From positions 1 through 56,340 of the IMG/VR virus record IMGVR_UViG_3300024343_000772: a stretch of 56,340 nt of DNA, one strand, 5' to 3'. The translations under genes were made by a program, and so were the position numbers. Positions within the stretch are counted from its first letter, which is position 1; every line of letters starts with the position of its first letter. The notes beneath the pieces are model-generated. The model searched no databases. It was not told the origin of the DNA and worked only from the letters and a program-made list of their open reading frames with translations. The DNA comes from a virus. Below are positions 1-6,458 of this stretch, piece after piece.

Positions 1-1236
1 CATTAAGTTATTCCAAAATAGATCTGTTAAAAAGAAACCGTATAATATAGGAAATGTATCCCACTTTCTTATAAAATAACCCAAAACAGATAGTGCTAGT
101 AATGATATTAATAACCATTCTTTTACTGGGTAAATATGCAAACTCATTATAGAAATGAATACAACTATTAACGTTGTAATTATATGTTTGTGTTGTTTTA
201 TATATTTGGCTATAATACCTAACTGATTAAAACAAACCCAAGATAGAAATAAACATATGACAAGAATAAGAGGAATATAATAAAGTATATCCTTAAATAT
301 GTGTAACGTTTCAATATCAAATGTAAATCCTCTCGATAATACCAAATAATATATCAAAACTTCACTACTTACAATAGGAATTCCTAATATTATTAATGGC
401 AGTAACGAGCTTAATGCTCCACTGTTATTTGCAGATTCAGCCGCAGCAATCTTGTTGATATCTGTCTTAACTACGTTAGCGCTTAAATAACCACCTAATA
501 TGTTTGTTACTCCTGGAATTAATCCTGCCCAAAAACCAATGAATGCTCCTATTATAGTAGAAGGCACGGTTTTAATATCATAACCAAACTTAGATATTTT
601 ATTATTATCTTTAAATTCTTTATCTTTAAATTTCAGTATTTCTGGTATGATATACAAACCAATCATTACAGAACTAAAGGGTATTCCCAAAGTTAAGTAA
701 TCAATACCAAAAGTTCCCCATGTTTCATAAGATATATTATCAAAACCTATCTTTGCGAGCACACCACCAAATACGAAAAGAATAATAGATTTCCATTTAG
801 CCTGCTCTGATAGAAATATTAAAAGAATGATTGCTATTGATATGACTACTACTTGTATTGTGCTATTATAGAATTTAAATAAGCCAAAGAAGTTTGACGC
901 AAAAGCCAAAAATAAACCTACAGCAAAGATAGATCCTATTGTGCTTGAGACAGCATTAGAGCTTACTGCGTAATGACCCTTTCCTTCTAGGAACAGTTTA
1001 TGCCCGTATCTTGCAGTTGTAACCGCAGCAGCGTCTCCTGGTATCCCGTATAGTATGCCAGTTACAGAATTGGTATAATTTGATGTGATGATTAACGCTA
1101 CATAAAAGATTAGAATATTAAACGGATCTAAAAACGCTAATAGAGGATAGAAAGTTGCGACAGCGAGAAATGCTCCTGCTCCTGGAATAATTCCAAATAT
1201 CACACCAGCAAATATGCCGAGTAAACACCAAATCAT
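1..1236 (-). CDS. tctA: TctA-like tripartite tricarboxylate transporter permease, partial (C-terminus outside window)
   Basis: The reading frame is open from an ATG at 1236 to the left window edge (412 codons); the family is usually about 500 residues, so roughly the last 90 are missing. TctA is the large membrane subunit of TTT carboxylate importers, which work with TctB and a periplasmic TctC. Both halves of the family's internal repeat are visible: an N-terminal GIIPGAGA segment followed by ITSNYTNSVTGILYGIPGD, and a second AGLIPGVTN segment followed by AAAESANNSGALSSLLP and LGIP. The rest is a series of hydrophobic helices. The start overlaps the stop of the upstream oxygenase gene (TAATG), so translation is probably coupled. 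No TctB or TctC is seen here, so it may use host partners. The substrate cannot be told from sequence. Confidence 0.82.
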   Translation of the reverse strand, partial: MIWCLLGIFAGVIFGIIPGAGAFLAVATFYPLLAFLDPFNILIFYVALIITSNYTNSVTGILYGIPGDAAAVTTARYGHKLFLEGKGHYAVSSNAVSSTIGSIFAVGLFLAFASNFFGLFKFYNSTIQVVVISIAIILLIFLSEQAKWKSIILFVFGGVLAKIGFDNISYETWGTFGIDYLTLGIPFSSVMIGLYIIPEILKFKDKEFKDNNKISKFGYDIKTVPSTIIGAFIGFWAGLIPGVTNILGGYLSANVVKTDINKIAAAESANNSGALSSLLPLIILGIPIVSSEVLIYYLVLSRGFTFDIETLHIFKDILYYIPLILVICLFLSWVCFNQLGIIAKYIKQHKHIITTLIVVFISIMSLHIYPVKEWLLISLLALSVLGYFIRKWDTFPILYGFFLTDLFWNNLM

Positions 1237-1880
1237 TAGCTACATATACCGTTATCTAACATATAATGAAATAAATCTTTATCCCAATGCAAGCATATTA
1301 CTATTATAATCATATCATCTTTAGTTGAAAATACGCAATGCCTTTTGTTTCCATTGAAATACCATAGTGATCCGTTATTGCATTTAACAATCTTATCATC
1401 GTATAACCATTTAAAATGATATTCGTTTACGTTCACAAAAGCTGTCAATCTTATTTCATCATAAGAAGAATCGTGTTTGTTGATATCGAAATGATCTGGA
1501 AAGAAACCTCCTCTATCCATTCTTAAAAAGTGGCAGCGCGTTATCCAACGTTCCCACGGCAATAATAATCTAGAAAGTTCTTCGCTTTGTGTCCACACTT
1601 TTGTTGGAACTACAATGTCTTGATTGTTTACTACGATTCCAGTTTCTTGTTCGTAGTTTTTTAAACTAGTTAAGTCAGGAATTCCGCTTAATCCACCGTC
1701 GATTGATGTAACACTGAGGCCCCATCTATTGTTCGGTTTATTGGGATTATATCGTTTCCAATCGTCTTTGAAAGGTTCTATTTCTTTCATAACTTTACGA
1801 GCATCAAAACCTTGGAATTCTTGCCAATCAGACATCATGCCTAATCGCGTTAATGCTTGAGCGTCTTCGTCCCACTTCAT
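1236..1880 (-). CDS. 2OG-Fe(II) oxygenase, Asp/Asn hydroxylase-like
   Basis: A 214-residue protein starting at the ATG at 1880, which has GAGG 8 nt upstream; an earlier in-frame ATG exists but lacks this site. The C-terminal half has the jelly-roll hydroxylase pattern: H130-x-D132 in PDHFD, a distal H181 in GNKRH, and an arginine in IRLTAFV. These are the expected iron and 2-oxoglutarate ligands. Such oxygenases are common in marine T4-like phages, usually with unknown substrates. It is the first gene of a two-gene minus-strand operon with the TctA-like permease and lies 31 nt downstream of a late box. Confidence 0.65.
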   Translation of the reverse strand: MKWDEDAQALTRLGMMSDWQEFQGFDARKVMKEIEPFKDDWKRYNPNKPNNRWGLSVTSIDGGLSGIPDLTSLKNYEQETGIVVNNQDIVVPTKVWTQSEELSRLLLPWERWITRCHFLRMDRGGFFPDHFDINKHDSSYDEIRLTAFVNVNEYHFKWLYDDKIVKCNNGSLWYFNGNKRHCVFSTKDDMIIIVICLHWDKDLFHYMLDNGICS

Positions 1881-1911: not shown

Positions 1912-1919
1912 TATTTATA
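1912..1919 (-). promoter_or_regulatory. T4-type late promoter box
   Basis: TATAAATA on the minus strand, 31 nt upstream of the oxygenase start at 1880. This is the T4 late -10 consensus, read by the gp55/gp33 system. It suggests that the oxygenase-TctA operon is expressed late. Confidence 0.6.
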
Positions 1920-1925
1920 ATACGG

Positions 1926-1953
1926 TTGACATTTTTCTAAGTCACGGTATAAT
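1926..1953 (+). promoter_or_regulatory. Sigma70-type early promoter
   Basis: TTGACA (1926-1931), 16 nt spacer, TATAAT (1948-1953), with TTTTT directly after the -35 box as in other early promoters of this window. It faces the PiT-like permease at 2045 and is divergent from the late box at 1912. Confidence 0.7.
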
Positions 1954-2044: not shown

Positions 2045-3010
2045 ATGGAACTACTCACAGTGTGGAGCCTTGTCGGCTTCCTGCTAGCTGCTTATGCGGT
2101 AATAGCGAATGATTCAGTACAGACTCTCGGTACATGGATGGCATCAAACAATGAGAGATTTAGTTATAAAACATTATGGGCTGCAGCATCTGCCGTCTTA
2201 TTAGCTACACTATGGTATGGTTGGAGCGTCAATGGTGGCGATATTAGTTATGGTCGTTTAAATAAGATTCCATGGCAAGAAGTACAATGGTATCATGCCG
2301 CGGCACCAGCAATATTAGTTGCATTAACTCGTATTGGTGTACCAGTATCAACATCATTTTTAGTTTTATCTGTATTCGCTTCAACGTTCGTGTTGGAAAA
2401 AATGCTAATGAAATCTATTATGGGTTATGGTGTAGCGGCTGCGTTTGCTTATCTTGTATGGTTTGCAATTCATAAGTATTTCGGTAGATGGTATGATGAA
2501 ACTCAGCCCGTAAGCGAAAGTAATAAGAACTATTGGCGCGTTGCTCAATGGGTTGCTACTGGTGGTTTATGGTACACTTGGTTATCACACGATATTGCTA
2601 ACATCGCAGTATTCTTACCAAGGCAAGTACCGGTAGACTTAATGATACTTATATCATTTGTATTTGTCGGTGGATTGTTCTTTATGTTTAGAGAACGGGG
2701 TGGTAAGATCCAGCAAATCGTATTAGAGAAACATAACACTCGATACGTACGATCGGCCACATTGATTGATTTATTCTATTGGTTGTGTCTATACTTCTTT
2801 AAAGAACTAAATGATATTCCTATGAGTACAACATGGGTTTTCGTTGGTTTACTTGCAGGTCGAGAACTTGCAATGGCTACATACTTTGGTAAAAAGAAAA
2901 CAAAATCAGTATTTCCATTAGTTGCTAAAGACTTTGGAAAAATGATGGTTGGTCTTGGTGCTTCAGTAGCATTAGTATTACTTATTCATACTGTGATTAA
3001 TCCAGTGTAA
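2045..3010 (+). CDS. PiT-like inorganic phosphate permease (divergent)
   Basis: A 321-residue, strongly hydrophobic protein with about eight to nine membrane segments and a good AAGGAG site. PiT (PHO4) permeases carry two inverted repeats with a GANDxANxxGT signature. Here an N-terminal IANDSVQTLGT (residues ~20-30) is followed by IGVPVSTSFLVLS (PiT: GxPVSTTHxxxG), and a second-half SHDIANIAVFLPR resembles the second signature. It is shorter than bacterial Pit (about 420-500 residues). If it is a transporter it would move phosphate, a common limit for marine phages. The distant match could also reflect a non-transporting relative. It has its own early promoter and a terminator-like hairpin behind it. 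Confidence 0.5.
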   Translation: MELLTVWSLVGFLLAAYAVIANDSVQTLGTWMASNNERFSYKTLWAAASAVLLATLWYGWSVNGGDISYGRLNKIPWQEVQWYHAAAPAILVALTRIGVPVSTSFLVLSVFASTFVLEKMLMKSIMGYGVAAAFAYLVWFAIHKYFGRWYDETQPVSESNKNYWRVAQWVATGGLWYTWLSHDIANIAVFLPRQVPVDLMILISFVFVGGLFFMFRERGGKIQQIVLEKHNTRYVRSATLIDLFYWLCLYFFKELNDIPMSTTWVFVGLLAGRELAMATYFGKKKTKSVFPLVAKDFGKMMVGLGASVALVLLIHTVINPV

Positions 3011-3371: not shown

Positions 3372-4172
3372 ATGAATAAATTTTTAACAACAACAGCTTT
3401 AGTATTTTTAGGAACGTCAGCATTCGCAGAGGAAGCTGCTCCAGAAGCACCAGCGGCAGTCACACTCGGTGGATCAATCGAAACAGTAATCGCAGAAGGT
3501 GCAAACGATAAGTACGGCGCTACTACTTCGTTCGAACTTAATGGTAATCTTGCTAACGGCTTAGCAACAGGCTCAATGGATTTCGTAGTAGGTTCTTCAG
3601 ATGAACTTAAATTAGACGAATGGTCAATGGGCACAACAGTAGCAGGCATGGGTTTATCTTTCGGAGATCAAGGTAATGCATGGATCTCAACTGAAGCAGG
3701 TTCAACAATCGAAGAGCCAACTATGAATGAAAGCTTACAAATTTCAGGTTTAGGCGCAACAGTAGCTCTTGGATTTACAAGTGTATCTACAGACGTAACA
3801 GATATTTCTAATGTTCAAGCGACATACGGTATGGATCTTTCAATCCTCGAAATATCAACAGCTGGTGACTATAACATTGATTCACAAGACTGGGTAATTG
3901 CAGGTCGTGCAGATACAGCAGGAATGATTGACGGAGTTCGTTTAGGCGGTGCAATGTCTTACGGTTCAGCATCTGAAAATATTGGTTTTGAAGCAGACGC
4001 AACAGTAATGGGCGTAACTGCTTACTTATCTGGTGATCAAGACGATATGGCTCAGCATGTAGGTGGTTCATATACATACAATCTAAAAGGTTTAGATCTT
4101 GAAGGTGCAGTAGATTATGACATCGATGCAGAAGCATACACACCAAAAGCGACTTTAAGCTTTAACTTCTAA
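3372..4172 (+). CDS. Outer-membrane porin-like beta-barrel protein 1
   Basis: A 266-residue protein with a Sec signal peptide (MNKFLTTTALVFLGTSAFA, likely cut after AFA) and a low-complexity EEAAPEAPAA stretch. Alternating amphipathic strands rich in Gly, Ser and Thr follow. It ends in LSFNF, the terminal aromatic residue needed for BAM-dependent insertion. This is the general plan of small alphaproteobacterial porins (about 300 residues). It would sit in the host outer membrane. The gene follows the tmRNA with no clear promoter of its own and has an AAAGGAAAG site before the ATG. A strong terminator follows at 4227. Confidence 0.7.
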   Translation: MNKFLTTTALVFLGTSAFAEEAAPEAPAAVTLGGSIETVIAEGANDKYGATTSFELNGNLANGLATGSMDFVVGSSDELKLDEWSMGTTVAGMGLSFGDQGNAWISTEAGSTIEEPTMNESLQISGLGATVALGFTSVSTDVTDISNVQATYGMDLSILEISTAGDYNIDSQDWVIAGRADTAGMIDGVRLGGAMSYGSASENIGFEADATVMGVTAYLSGDQDDMAQHVGGSYTYNLKGLDLEGAVDYDIDAEAYTPKATLSFNF

Positions 4173-4295: not shown

Positions 4296-4838
4296 ATGAC
4301 AAACAAATTAAAGCAACTCACTTGGGCACATCACCAAGCCGCAGAACGCAGAAAGTTTGCTAAGCAATTAATAAGCGGTGGTATTGATCCATTCGTATAT
4401 TATAAATTTCTTAATTGCCAATATCTAGTCTACAAGTTATTAGAAGATATTGTAATTATTCCCCCACATCTTGCAACAATTTATAGGGCACCACGTATAC
4501 TTCAAGATATTGAAGAACTTGGTGAGATCTACGGGTTTGATGATATTGATCATTATCCAGAATCTGTAGGCCGTTGTATGTCACACATGCAAGGTTTAGC
4601 TGATGCAGATGATAATGATGGTTTACTGTCTCATATGTATGTAAGACACTTTGGTGAATTACACGGCGGACAAATCATTAAAGCTAAAACACCTGGGAAA
4701 GGTGTAATGTATGAATTTGAAGGTGATACTAAAGTTCTTATTGAAGAATTCAGAAAACTTTTACACGATGGCATGGAAGTAGAAGCTAAACGTTGTTTCG
4801 ACTTTGCTTCAGAACTGTTTGACGAATTATCTAAATAA
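4296..4838 (+). CDS. ho: Heme oxygenase (HO-1/HemO family)
   Basis: A 180-residue alpha-helical enzyme that opens heme to biliverdin, CO and iron using reductant and oxygen. The proximal heme ligand is visible as H13 in the HxxAE pattern near the N-terminus (AHHQAAE). The distal-helix motif appears as RHFGELHGGQ (residues 117-126, family form GDLSGGQ), and HDGMEVEAKRCFDFA fits the C-terminal helix. Length is somewhat under the usual 190-240. It sits behind a late box and two genes upstream of a bilin reductase. The same gene pair is known in uncultured marine phages and in cyanophages. Its product biliverdin would feed the reductase at 5775. Confidence 0.88.
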   Translation: MTNKLKQLTWAHHQAAERRKFAKQLISGGIDPFVYYKFLNCQYLVYKLLEDIVIIPPHLATIYRAPRILQDIEELGEIYGFDDIDHYPESVGRCMSHMQGLADADDNDGLLSHMYVRHFGELHGGQIIKAKTPGKGVMYEFEGDTKVLIEEFRKLLHDGMEVEAKRCFDFASELFDELSK

Positions 4839-4841
4839 ACG

Positions 4842-4870
4842 TTTACATATACGTAAAAATATGGTATTAT
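4842..4870 (+). promoter_or_regulatory. Sigma70-type promoter
   Basis: CGTTTACA (-35 TTTACA 4842-4847), 17-nt spacer, TATTAT (4865-4870), upstream of the small basic protein at 4901. It could drive pcyX separately from heme oxygenase. Confidence 0.7.
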
Positions 4871-4900
4871 AAATTAATAATCTATACAAGGAGGAATACA

Positions 4901-5068
4901 ATGCATAATGAAGCATTAGAAGAAGTTAACCTCAAGCCAAAGCCTCGTGCTTTAAGGATGTTGCGAAGTAGAGCAGCACGAACCAGGCGAAGACTTCAGA
5001 AATCAATATCTGAAACTAGATTAGTAAATGAATATAATAAATTAAGAAGGCTACGTAAAAAGAAATGA
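4901..5068 (+). CDS. Small highly basic protein
   Basis: A 55-residue protein with a strong AAGGAGG site. It is rich in Arg and Lys, with an RSRAARTRRRLQK segment and an RRLRKKK tail. No family is recognised. Its stop overlaps the next start (ATGA), so it belongs to the bilin operon transcript. Nucleic-acid binding is possible but only a guess. Confidence 0.7.
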   Translation: MHNEALEEVNLKPKPRALRMLRSRAARTRRRLQKSISETRLVNEYNKLRRLRKKK

Positions 5069-5793
5069 TTTTCCATAGAAGGAAAAAAATAACGGTAGAT
5101 GCTTTTACAGATCAGGAAAATATTGCAAAATATCCAATAGAAAGATCTAATAAGCATTTACCGAGTTGGTTTACTGACATGAAAACCGTAATAAAAAAGA
5201 AAAGCACTCAAGGATTAGTAGGAAAAACTGCTACGTTTAAAATGTGTCAAGGCTTTCAAGATAATATTAATAATAGCTTTACTATTTCATTATGGGCAGA
5301 TTTGATGTTTAGAGTAGAAGTAGATGGAACGTTTTCATACCAATACCCAAATAAACTTTGCAACTTTGGAATGGAATCTCATAATAGTCCTGAAGCAACT
5401 CCAATGGGTGAATTTGCACCGCTTAAGCATTTAAAGATATTTTCGCCCTGGGTTTTAAGAGAAAAAACTGGTGTAAACTTCTATTGGTCTCAAGCTTTTT
5501 GGTCTTATGGCGCAGCTGCATCAGATATGCTTATTCCGCCTGGTGTCGTTAATTACAAATATCAGAATGGAACACATATTAATTTAATGATACAGGCTGG
5601 AAAACAATTAGATTTAGACGCAGGTCAACCTCTCGTTTATCTACATCCTTTAACTGAAAACAAAGTAGAAATCAAAACTCATGTAGTAGATACAAAAGAG
5701 TATGAAAAATTAAAGCATGCAACAGTCTATAACAAGTTTGTAGGCGGATATAAAACACATAAGAAGAACTCAAAATGCACCCACTCTGGATAA
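5065..5793 (+). CDS. Conserved phage protein of unknown function
   Basis: A 242-residue protein, soluble, with no signal peptide. It has many aromatic residues and a likely beta-sandwich (for example PPGVVNYKYQNGTHINLMI and VYLHPLTENKVEIKTH). It resembles hypothetical proteins of marine T4-like phages, and a link to the DUF6065 group is possible but not firm. It lies between heme oxygenase and the bilin reductase and overlaps both neighbours, so co-expression with them is likely. Confidence 0.7.
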   Translation: MIFHRRKKITVDAFTDQENIAKYPIERSNKHLPSWFTDMKTVIKKKSTQGLVGKTATFKMCQGFQDNINNSFTISLWADLMFRVEVDGTFSYQYPNKLCNFGMESHNSPEATPMGEFAPLKHLKIFSPWVLREKTGVNFYWSQAFWSYGAAASDMLIPPGVVNYKYQNGTHINLMIQAGKQLDLDAGQPLVYLHPLTENKVEIKTHVVDTKEYEKLKHATVYNKFVGGYKTHKKNSKCTHSG

Positions 5794-6458
5794 GACTAAA
5801 CGAATATGCTGATCATCTTACACAATGCTTTGATCAGCAATTTACTCGTTATAATAACGAAAAGTATACAGAAGATCTAAAATTTAAAGATTGGAAAGAT
5901 ACTTTTTGGAAATCCGAACAAGTAAGTAAAGTCCATCTTAAAACTATTGTACCTGATGATGGTAAAGGTTTATGGCTTATGCATATTAATATATTTCCAA
6001 GAGTAGGCATTGAACTGCCGATTTTGGGATTTGATATTGTAGCAGGACCTAAAAAAATTACAGGTTCGTTTATGGACTTTTCACCACTGCATGGTTATGA
6101 TCATGCTTATAATGATTATATGGCGAAAAAAGTTTACGGTATCGAATGGAATAAACCACGAGAACTACCCGAATGGGCTAAAGAAATTTTCTCTGATAAT
6201 ATGCTAGCTGTTGGCAATATTAGAGATGGCGAAGAACTAGACCAGTTTATGGCCATAACAAAAGATTTGGTTGATCATTACTTAACTAATCTTAAAGACA
6301 GTGCGTTTGTATCAAATCGTGATACAAAACCATTACTTAACAAATACTGCACAAATCAAAAGATGAACCCTCATCTTCATAGATCTATTTTAGCTATGGG
6401 TATTTCAGAGGAAGGAAAAAACCAATACGTCGACGACGTTCTATTTGAGGTAATTTAA
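5775..6458 (+). CDS. pcyX: Ferredoxin-dependent bilin reductase, PcyX-like
   Basis: A 227-residue protein that aligns with the PcyA/PebS/HY2 family along its length. The core GKGLWLMHINIFPR, LPILGFDIVAGP and RELPEWAKEIFS matches PcyA, and the C-terminus (YCTNQKMNPHLHRSILAMG, then VDDVLFEVI) fits the family end. By recalled PcyA numbering, His88 and Asp105 correspond to H70 and D87, while Glu76 aligns with K56. Loss of that Glu points away from a PcyA-type phycocyanobilin product. PcyX enzymes from uncultured marine phages are reported to make phycoerythrobilin from biliverdin. It would need a ferredoxin, and none is encoded here. Confidence 0.82.
   Translation: MHPLWIRLNEYADHLTQCFDQQFTRYNNEKYTEDLKFKDWKDTFWKSEQVSKVHLKTIVPDDGKGLWLMHINIFPRVGIELPILGFDIVAGPKKITGSFMDFSPLHGYDHAYNDYMAKKVYGIEWNKPRELPEWAKEIFSDNMLAVGNIRDGEELDQFMAITKDLVDHYLTNLKDSAFVSNRDTKPLLNKYCTNQKMNPHLHRSILAMGISEEGKNQYVDDVLFEVI

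Follow-up and report, generated by a model that had tools for sequence, protein, structure and literature searches.

The left end of the window (the whole stretch of viral DNA analysed here, 56,340 bases long) carries genes one and two of a four-gene cassette that is conserved in marine T4-like phages. The four encoded proteins are an aspartyl/asparaginyl beta-hydroxylase-like oxygenase, a TctA-type permease, a predicted ATP-grasp ligase and a secreted binding protein of TctC fold, the last two being encoded just beyond the window edge. This makeup suggests that infected cells are made to import one particular small molecule and then to convert it. We infer the direction of transport, a partnership between TctA and the binding protein, the use of the solute as ligase substrate, and a product with its benefit. 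Import as such by TctA and the binding protein appears somewhat probable. The whole proposal, in which a TctA importer working without TctB feeds a ligase/hydroxylase pathway, is tentative, the case for it being nearly balanced by the case against it.

Table 1 Cassette features and neighbouring features (window positions, unless another record is named)
Feature	Coordinates	Strand	Remarks
TctA-type permease	1..1236	-	412 of 419 residues, 3' end clipped at window edge; PF01970
Aspartyl/asparaginyl beta-hydroxylase-like (2OG-Fe) oxygenase	1236..1880	-	214 aa; ATG at 1880, stop at 1238-1236 over TctA start
TATAAATA, T4-late-promoter-like box	1912-1919	-	31 nt before oxygenase ATG at 1880
Perfect sigma-70-type promoter, TTGACA-16-TATAAT	1926..1953	+	Serves divergent gene at 2045; bounds cassette on the right, not in cassette
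Membrane protein resembling PiT/PHO4 phosphate permease	2045-3010	+	321 aa
Secreted porin-like protein (by eye)	3372-4172	+	266 aa; signal-peptide-like start, final aromatic residue
Heme oxygenase (PF01126), phrog_7084 protein (242 aa), bilin reductase (PF05996)	4296-6458	+	
Complete TctA, record L002	8001-9260		419 aa
H.D...H protein, record L095	7507-8004		165 aa; overlaps TctA start

The TctA-type permease

The frame at the window edge is a genuine TctA gene, as the preliminary description had proposed. It matches PF01970 with 204 bits (E 3.7e-60, curated cut-off 28.9) over profile positions 1-415 of 423, and cellular TctA aligns with the phage TctA profile across 418 columns (hhalign, E 1.6e-37). 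Only the last seven residues are missing from the window; the full-length protein is encoded in IMGVR_UViG_3300027255_000033 (hereafter L002), a near-identical record that reaches past the window edge and whose TctA shows 2 differences in 412 residues. Since the stop codon in L002 lies seven residues past the edge, the frame is unbroken there, where a break had been named as a possible refutation.

Three phage TctA proteins, scanned against IMG/VR, led to 47 viral contigs, and a collection of 50,697 phage records returned six weak partial matches only. The alignments of cassette proteins used below were thinned by k-mer similarity, and one ligase row was left out. In the phylogeny, which had been suggested as a check, 26 phage and 20 cellular TctA proteins are cleanly split, the phage proteins forming one clade (SH-aLRT 100); identity is at most 30% between phage and cell and at least 62% between phages. 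The phage proteins are also smaller (about 420 aa, against 482-707 aa in the cellular set), and the alignment with cellular proteins shows that an N-terminal stretch and the last hydrophobic segment are absent from them. TctA is under purifying selection, with a median dN/dS of 0.16 and a maximum of 0.33; these and the following values were taken from pairs with a synonymous difference of 0.05-0.6, which come from related phages and are not independent of each other.

The signature motif of TctA is described as present in two copies per protein (PMC5812351, consulted in part). In the phage proteins, the first copy (G-x3-G-x3-G-x2-P-G-x-G) is intact in 25 of 26, whereas the second is strictly conserved in none of the 26 and keeps all positions but the last in every one: it ends in PG.T in 26/26 phage proteins and in PG.G in 20/20 cellular ones. 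The claim that both family repeats are carried is thus sound for the first repeat and must be amended for the second, which ends in threonine. Loss of this final glycine could mean that transport is altered or lost, and its occurrence in all 26 proteins points to a changed site in TctA.

Proteins encoded beyond the window edge

Leftward extension in search of tctB and tctC had been recommended, and L002 made it possible: the extension revealed a ligase and then a TctC-fold protein. The start of a 386-aa protein overlaps the TctA stop in this record, and next to it, on the opposite strand, is the gene of a 256-aa protein whose N-terminus resembles a signal peptide.

The AlphaFold2 model of the 386-aa protein is confident (pLDDT 91.3). 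Its best structural match is the L-amino acid ligase 3vot (Z 25.7, rmsd 3.6, 337 aligned), and other ATP-grasp enzymes are also among the matches. KP..GSG and D.NPR, which we take to be the ATP-grasp active-site residues, are kept in 28/28 ligases. By its modelled fold and these residues, the protein is predicted to be an ATP-grasp carboxylate-amine ligase. Pfam gave E 0.016 at best, in 4 of 28 ligases, and the 50,697 phage records contained no match. Selection on the ligase is again purifying (median dN/dS 0.31, maximum 0.78).

The binding proteins have signal-peptide-like N-termini (by eye). The model is of moderate quality (pLDDT 76.8, the five models ranging from 76.8 to 43.0), and its top 11 structural rows (by VIA) are all TctC/Bug-type proteins, with Z 14.3 to 10.5, where rows within 1 Z of each other were treated as tied; the best row is 4x9t (Z 14.3, rmsd 3.8, 232 aligned) and the first row of another type is a sulfonate-binding protein (Z 10.1). 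By hhalign, the binding protein aligns with 17 cellular TctC proteins across 213 columns (E 0.0015), and three other families gave 0.32-0.52. The Pfam TctC model, PF03401, recognised the binding protein in 0 of 30 viral records and in 0 of 27 binding proteins, 3 of which matched PBP_like_2 (best E 4.4e-4). Because PF03401 is blind to it, we call the protein TctC-fold and not a member of PF03401. It has no match in the 50,697 phage records, 10 matches in BFVD at E <= 0.001, several of them to unrelated enzymes or unnamed proteins, and 61 contigs in an IMG/VR scan with one binding protein. Its median dN/dS is 0.24 (maximum 0.61), indicating purifying selection.

The preliminary description had stated that TctB and TctC partners are lacking. 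Within the window this is accurate, as no TctB match and no frame resembling TctC or another solute-binding protein is present, but a TctC-fold partner is located just beyond the end of TctA in L002 and in a second record, L191. The window edge falls inside the unit, seven residues before the TctA stop, so that the missing TctC is a property of the window only. For TctB (PF07331), nothing passed the cut-off in the window or in the 30 of 47 viral records searched, which may be fragments; the two matches below the cut-off (9.4 and 8.1 bits) both lie inside the PiT-like gene. A TctB concealed in the cassette was considered and rejected, since the loci read by eye offer either no intergenic room or an inserted gene that is a methyltransferase (FkbM-type or other) or a second oxygenase-like gene. 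According to PMC5812351, consulted in part, both membrane subunits of a classical TTT system are essential for uptake and TctB is poorly conserved, so a diverged TctB may be encoded elsewhere.

Profiles of TctA, the ligase, the binding protein and the PiT-like protein found no credible match among PDB sequences; hits to microcompartment proteins (E 0.035-0.19), an alpha-galactosidase (0.79) and SptTad2 (0.45) were set aside as chance.

The oxygenase

The name "2OG-dependent oxygenase" had been given to the gene upstream of TctA. The family is supported by profile comparison: hhalign against PF05118 proteins gave E 0.00048 over 85 columns, where three other comparisons gave at least 0.31, and the motif H.D...H, presumably the iron ligands, is present in 23/23 oxygenases. 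Pfam gave no match to the window protein at E <= 0.001, and PF05118 was listed for 3 of 23 relatives with a best E of 0.012, short of the curated cut-off. Searched against PDB, the oxygenase profile reached entries for beta-hydroxylases (E 0.027-0.062) and one designed protein (E 0.036). The family uses 2-oxoglutarate, and for the phage protein the same dependence is suggested by its family membership. With a median dN/dS of 0.15 (maximum 0.99), this gene too is under purifying selection.

A single relative was found in the 50,697 phage records, in Pelagibacter phage Mosig (32% identity, annotated Asp_Arg_Hydrox), where it lies beside aminotransferases, methylases and a tail fibre and no permease is annotated within 6 kb. 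The oxygenase family occurs upstream of TctA in two tandem copies (94 and 328 bits) in L090-L093. Where the oxygenase is absent in L095, an unrelated-looking H.D...H protein (Table 1) overlaps the TctA start, and it is possibly a functional stand-in.

Conservation and architecture of the cassette

Cassette neighbours were called by phmmer at E 1e-4. The oxygenase adjoins TctA upstream in 44 of the 46 contigs with upstream sequence, the exceptions being L095 and L096 (L128, which begins within TctA, was left out of this count). The pair had been proposed for a search in other phages, with its non-conservation as a refutation; its recurrence in 44/46 contigs lends support to a functional tie between permease and oxygenase. 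Beyond TctA, all 45 contigs that reach far enough carry the ligase (L123 and L129 stop within TctA), and all 42 that extend further carry the binding protein (L086, L089 and L107 stop within the ligase). The genes of ligase and binding protein are flipped together, as one block, in L124-L127 and L130. The number of contig L101 (IMGVR_UViG_2778261481_000080) has another form than the 3300... numbers of metagenomes, which, as a guess, may indicate a single-cell or isolate genome and thereby a host.

The variability of the surroundings was assessed on the 24 of 47 contigs with wide flanks, 12 of which were left after removal of TctA copies more than 95% alike; the 35 contigs outside this set have short flanks or are near-copies, the latter including the oxygenase-less L095 and L096. 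Each of the four cassette families occurs in 12/12 representatives and the next most common neighbour in 8/12, so that the flanking island genes vary while the four cassette genes are constant.

The spacing is tight. In the window the oxygenase stop and the TctA start share one base (TAATG), and among 43 relatives the gap is -1 in 27, -4 in 6, 0 in 4 and +8 in 6. The translational coupling proposed for the pair is therefore well founded, with an overlap of -1 or -4 in 33/43. The same-strand gap between TctA and ligase is -4 in 29/40, -1 in 6/40 and 456-828 nt in the other 5; genes read by eye inside these longer gaps are methyltransferases (L088, L104) and a second oxygenase-like gene (L121), and L124 has an FkbM-type methyltransferase after TctA. 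Finally, the tails of the ligase and binding-protein genes overlap in 42/42.

Promoters

The box TATAAATA before the oxygenase had been read as a sign of late expression. With 14 copies in the window it exceeds the 8.2 expected (5 of 100 shuffles reach 14), and 5 of the 14 sites lie 26-38 nt before an ATG, as compared with 35/466 for 55 words of the same letters. From this count and this position test it is probably a real late box in the window phage. Among 34 distinct oxygenase upstream regions, however, exact TATAAATA is found in 3, of which 2 have it at the distance of a promoter and one is the region from the window itself. The box before the window oxygenase thus stands, and late expression as a property of the cassette was ruled out, as the box is not conserved in relatives.

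A different pattern is found before the binding-protein gene, where a match to 11 or more of the 12 sigma-70 consensus bases is present in 20 of 41 distinct upstream regions (0.9 expected). At the same threshold, the oxygenase gave 2/34 (0.45 expected), TctA 0/35 and the ligase 0/32. L131, a near-copy of the window phage, has a binding-protein promoter that scores 10. As the upstream regions come from related phages, the excess is to be read as a pattern and not as independent events, and it suggests that a sigma-70-type promoter of its own commonly precedes the binding-protein gene.

Genomic setting

The window record is T4-like by its gp32, UvsX and DnaB-type helicase genes. Of 14 records tested, 5 have the T4 capsid gene gp23, among them those of 158, 177 and 235 kb. 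The T4 neck gene was found in 5 of the 14 viral records in which it was sought, always on the strand of TctA and at a distance of 17-22 kb from it; the 158-kb and 235-kb records did not show it. The cassette lies in an island of glycosyltransferase-like, radical SAM, methyltransferase-like and tail-fibre-like genes, several of them named by eye.

On the other side of the divergent promoter in the window, the PiT-like protein aligns with the PHO4 profile at E 0.00095 over 246 columns, ND and PxST motifs included, and Pfam gave E 0.98 only, in 1 of 13 such proteins. Relatives are encoded in 390 viral stretches and in none of the 50,697 phage records. The porin-like protein that follows has neither a Pfam nor a PHROG match. 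Further right lie the heme oxygenase and bilin reductase genes (Table 1); hemO/pcyX cassettes are known in marine phages (PMC11480375, consulted in part).

Comparison with known systems

The cassette resembles the TTT family (TC 2.A.80, e.g. Salmonella TctCBA) in its PF01970 membrane subunit with the duplicated glycine/PGxG motif and in the TctC-fold secreted binding protein encoded alongside TctA. It differs in that no TctB was found, the second motif reads PG.T in 26/26, TctA has only about 420 aa, the binding protein is missed by PF03401 and encoded tail-to-tail, and a ligase and an oxygenase belong to the operon.

That TctA occurs in viral contigs is already reported, in passing. The parts consulted of PMC4164917 mention tctA on SUP05 viral contigs, where nothing beyond a domain hit is given and the role is called unknown, and list a 2OG-Fe oxygenase with TctA among the putative AMGs; the listing of SUP05 viral TctA is repeated in PMC6359870, and PMC8115048 names "tricarboxylate transport" near norB/nirK on a myovirus contig from an oxygen-minimum zone (both consulted in part). 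Compared by description only, the SUP05 and myovirus contigs share with the cassette the presence of TctA or tricarboxylate genes on marine viral contigs, and the consulted parts of PMC4164917 and PMC8115048 give no gene order, ligase, binding protein or motif change. We found no description of the four-gene cassette in our searches of the open-licence literature.

The PstS of cyanophages is a phage-encoded periplasmic binding protein, and the cassette protein is likewise a virus-encoded binding protein of uptake type. BFVD has entries of the same fold at 12-15% identity, two of them named "PBP2_Bug_TTT" (uncultured Caudovirales, 12-14%) and one named Bordetella uptake protein, and the fold as such is thus no novelty among phage binding proteins. 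Unlike these examples and PstS, the cassette binding protein has a TctA partner encoded with it in 42/42 contigs. Mosig has only the oxygenase relative of the cassette genes. The island itself is similar to the host recognition cluster of pelagimyophages, situated between VrlC and gp14, with its tail fibres, glycosyltransferases, radical SAM and the neck gene gp14 at the end; the parts consulted of that account (PMC7029224) mention neither TctA nor a binding protein.

Proposed function and alternatives

The reading that we prefer is a route of import and conversion. In its most specific form the route would be peculiar to the virus: a two-part TTT importer without TctB, with an altered second signature motif and a binding-protein family of its own, would be dedicated to one scarce carboxylate, from which the ligase and the hydroxylase would make an amide- or peptide-type product for use in infection, for example on the cell surface or the virion. 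This specific form is possible, if on the unlikely side. In the preferred reading, host RNA polymerase would read the binding-protein gene from its own sigma-70 promoter and the protein would fill the periplasm, capture a carboxylate-bearing solute and pass it to the phage TctA, which would be a secondary transporter, trimmed at both ends and operating without TctB. A cytoplasmic ATP-grasp enzyme would then activate a carboxylate, perhaps the imported one, and couple it with an amine or amino acid, while hydroxylation of the substrate or the product would fall to the beta-hydroxylase-like oxygenase; in some phages the operon also includes a methyltransferase or a second oxygenase. Several points tell against the full proposal: no TctB was found in the window or the 30 records searched, the second-motif glycine is lost, PF03401 is blind to the binding protein, the model of that protein is of moderate quality and the oxygenase is missing in 2/46 contigs.

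A further point is the position of the cassette in a tail-fibre/glycosyltransferase island, from which a role at the cell surface may be suspected. The cassette might make or move a precursor for LPS, tail fibres or a peptide, TctA perhaps acting as exporter or recycler, which we regard as rather improbable. The glycosyltransferase-like, radical SAM, methyltransferase-like and tail-fibre-like neighbours fit this explanation, as do the oxygenase relative of Mosig, which sits in such an island, and the distance of 17-22 kb between neck gene and TctA, as in the "host recognition cluster" (PMC7029224, consulted in part). However, a TctC-fold secreted protein with its own promoter marks uptake rather than export, and the flanking island genes vary where the four cassette genes do not.

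Plain nutrient scavenging seems improbable; here a common di- or tricarboxylate, brought in by TctA and the binding protein, would serve phage production as a source of carbon or energy, and ligase and oxygenase would be separate genes hitchhiking in the island. Phages with known uptake genes exist, and the window phage has the PiT-like permease and the porin-like protein (by eye) beside the cassette; classical TTT systems do take carboxylates (PMC5812351, consulted in part). Hitchhiking nevertheless agrees poorly with a ligase that overlaps TctA in 35/40 same-strand cases, lies within 828 nt of it in the other 5, and, being present in 45/45, is commoner than any flanking gene.

A link between carboxylate import and the oxygenase had been suggested in the preliminary description, and the adjacency of the pair in 44/46 contigs favours such a link in general. 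The narrower idea that TctA supplies 2-oxoglutarate or a precursor to the coupled oxygenase draws on this adjacency, on the one-base overlap and on the use of 2-oxoglutarate by the family, but the feeding of a dicarboxylate is weakly supported, and the ligase (45/45) and the binding protein (42/42) are tied to TctA at least as tightly. Moreover, 2-oxoglutarate is a normal host metabolite, L095 and L096 keep TctA, ligase and binding protein without this oxygenase, and the Mosig relative has no TctA annotated within 6 kb. On the evidence of L095/L096 and Mosig, we rejected 2-oxoglutarate supply as the main purpose and consider it very improbable.

A bacterial gene misassembled onto a viral contig can practically be dismissed: although close relatives (L191 and L192) also occur in one bacterial bin, of the Rhodobacteraceae, the scan of 84,980 species' genomes gave no others, both contigs are phage-like (L191 repeats the window gp32 and its neighbours), the bin has 8 T4 neck genes, and there are 47 viral contigs, with gp23 in 5/14 records tested; host contamination was rejected on the bin contigs, gp23 and the neck genes. 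The 8 T4-type neck genes and two cassette copies of that bin (MAG G031, Rhodobacteraceae bacterium Water_Bin34) indicate a large admixture of phage contigs. When 299 genomes of its phylum were searched with profiles, TctA was found in 86 of them, and the binding protein nowhere but in the phage contigs of the bin itself.

Implications

Returning to import and conversion, what travels together through a hypervariable island under purifying selection is a binding protein, a probable permease and two enzymes. To our knowledge, the phage uptake genes described so far are mostly single pieces of host systems. The cassette would offer a natural TTT system without TctB, relevant to the open question of the role of TctB. 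It also lends itself to testing whether a virus equips its host with an entire route of uptake and conversion. If the virus-specific form of the proposal is true, the uptake system would have evolved for a viral biosynthetic product and would not be borrowed host nutrition.
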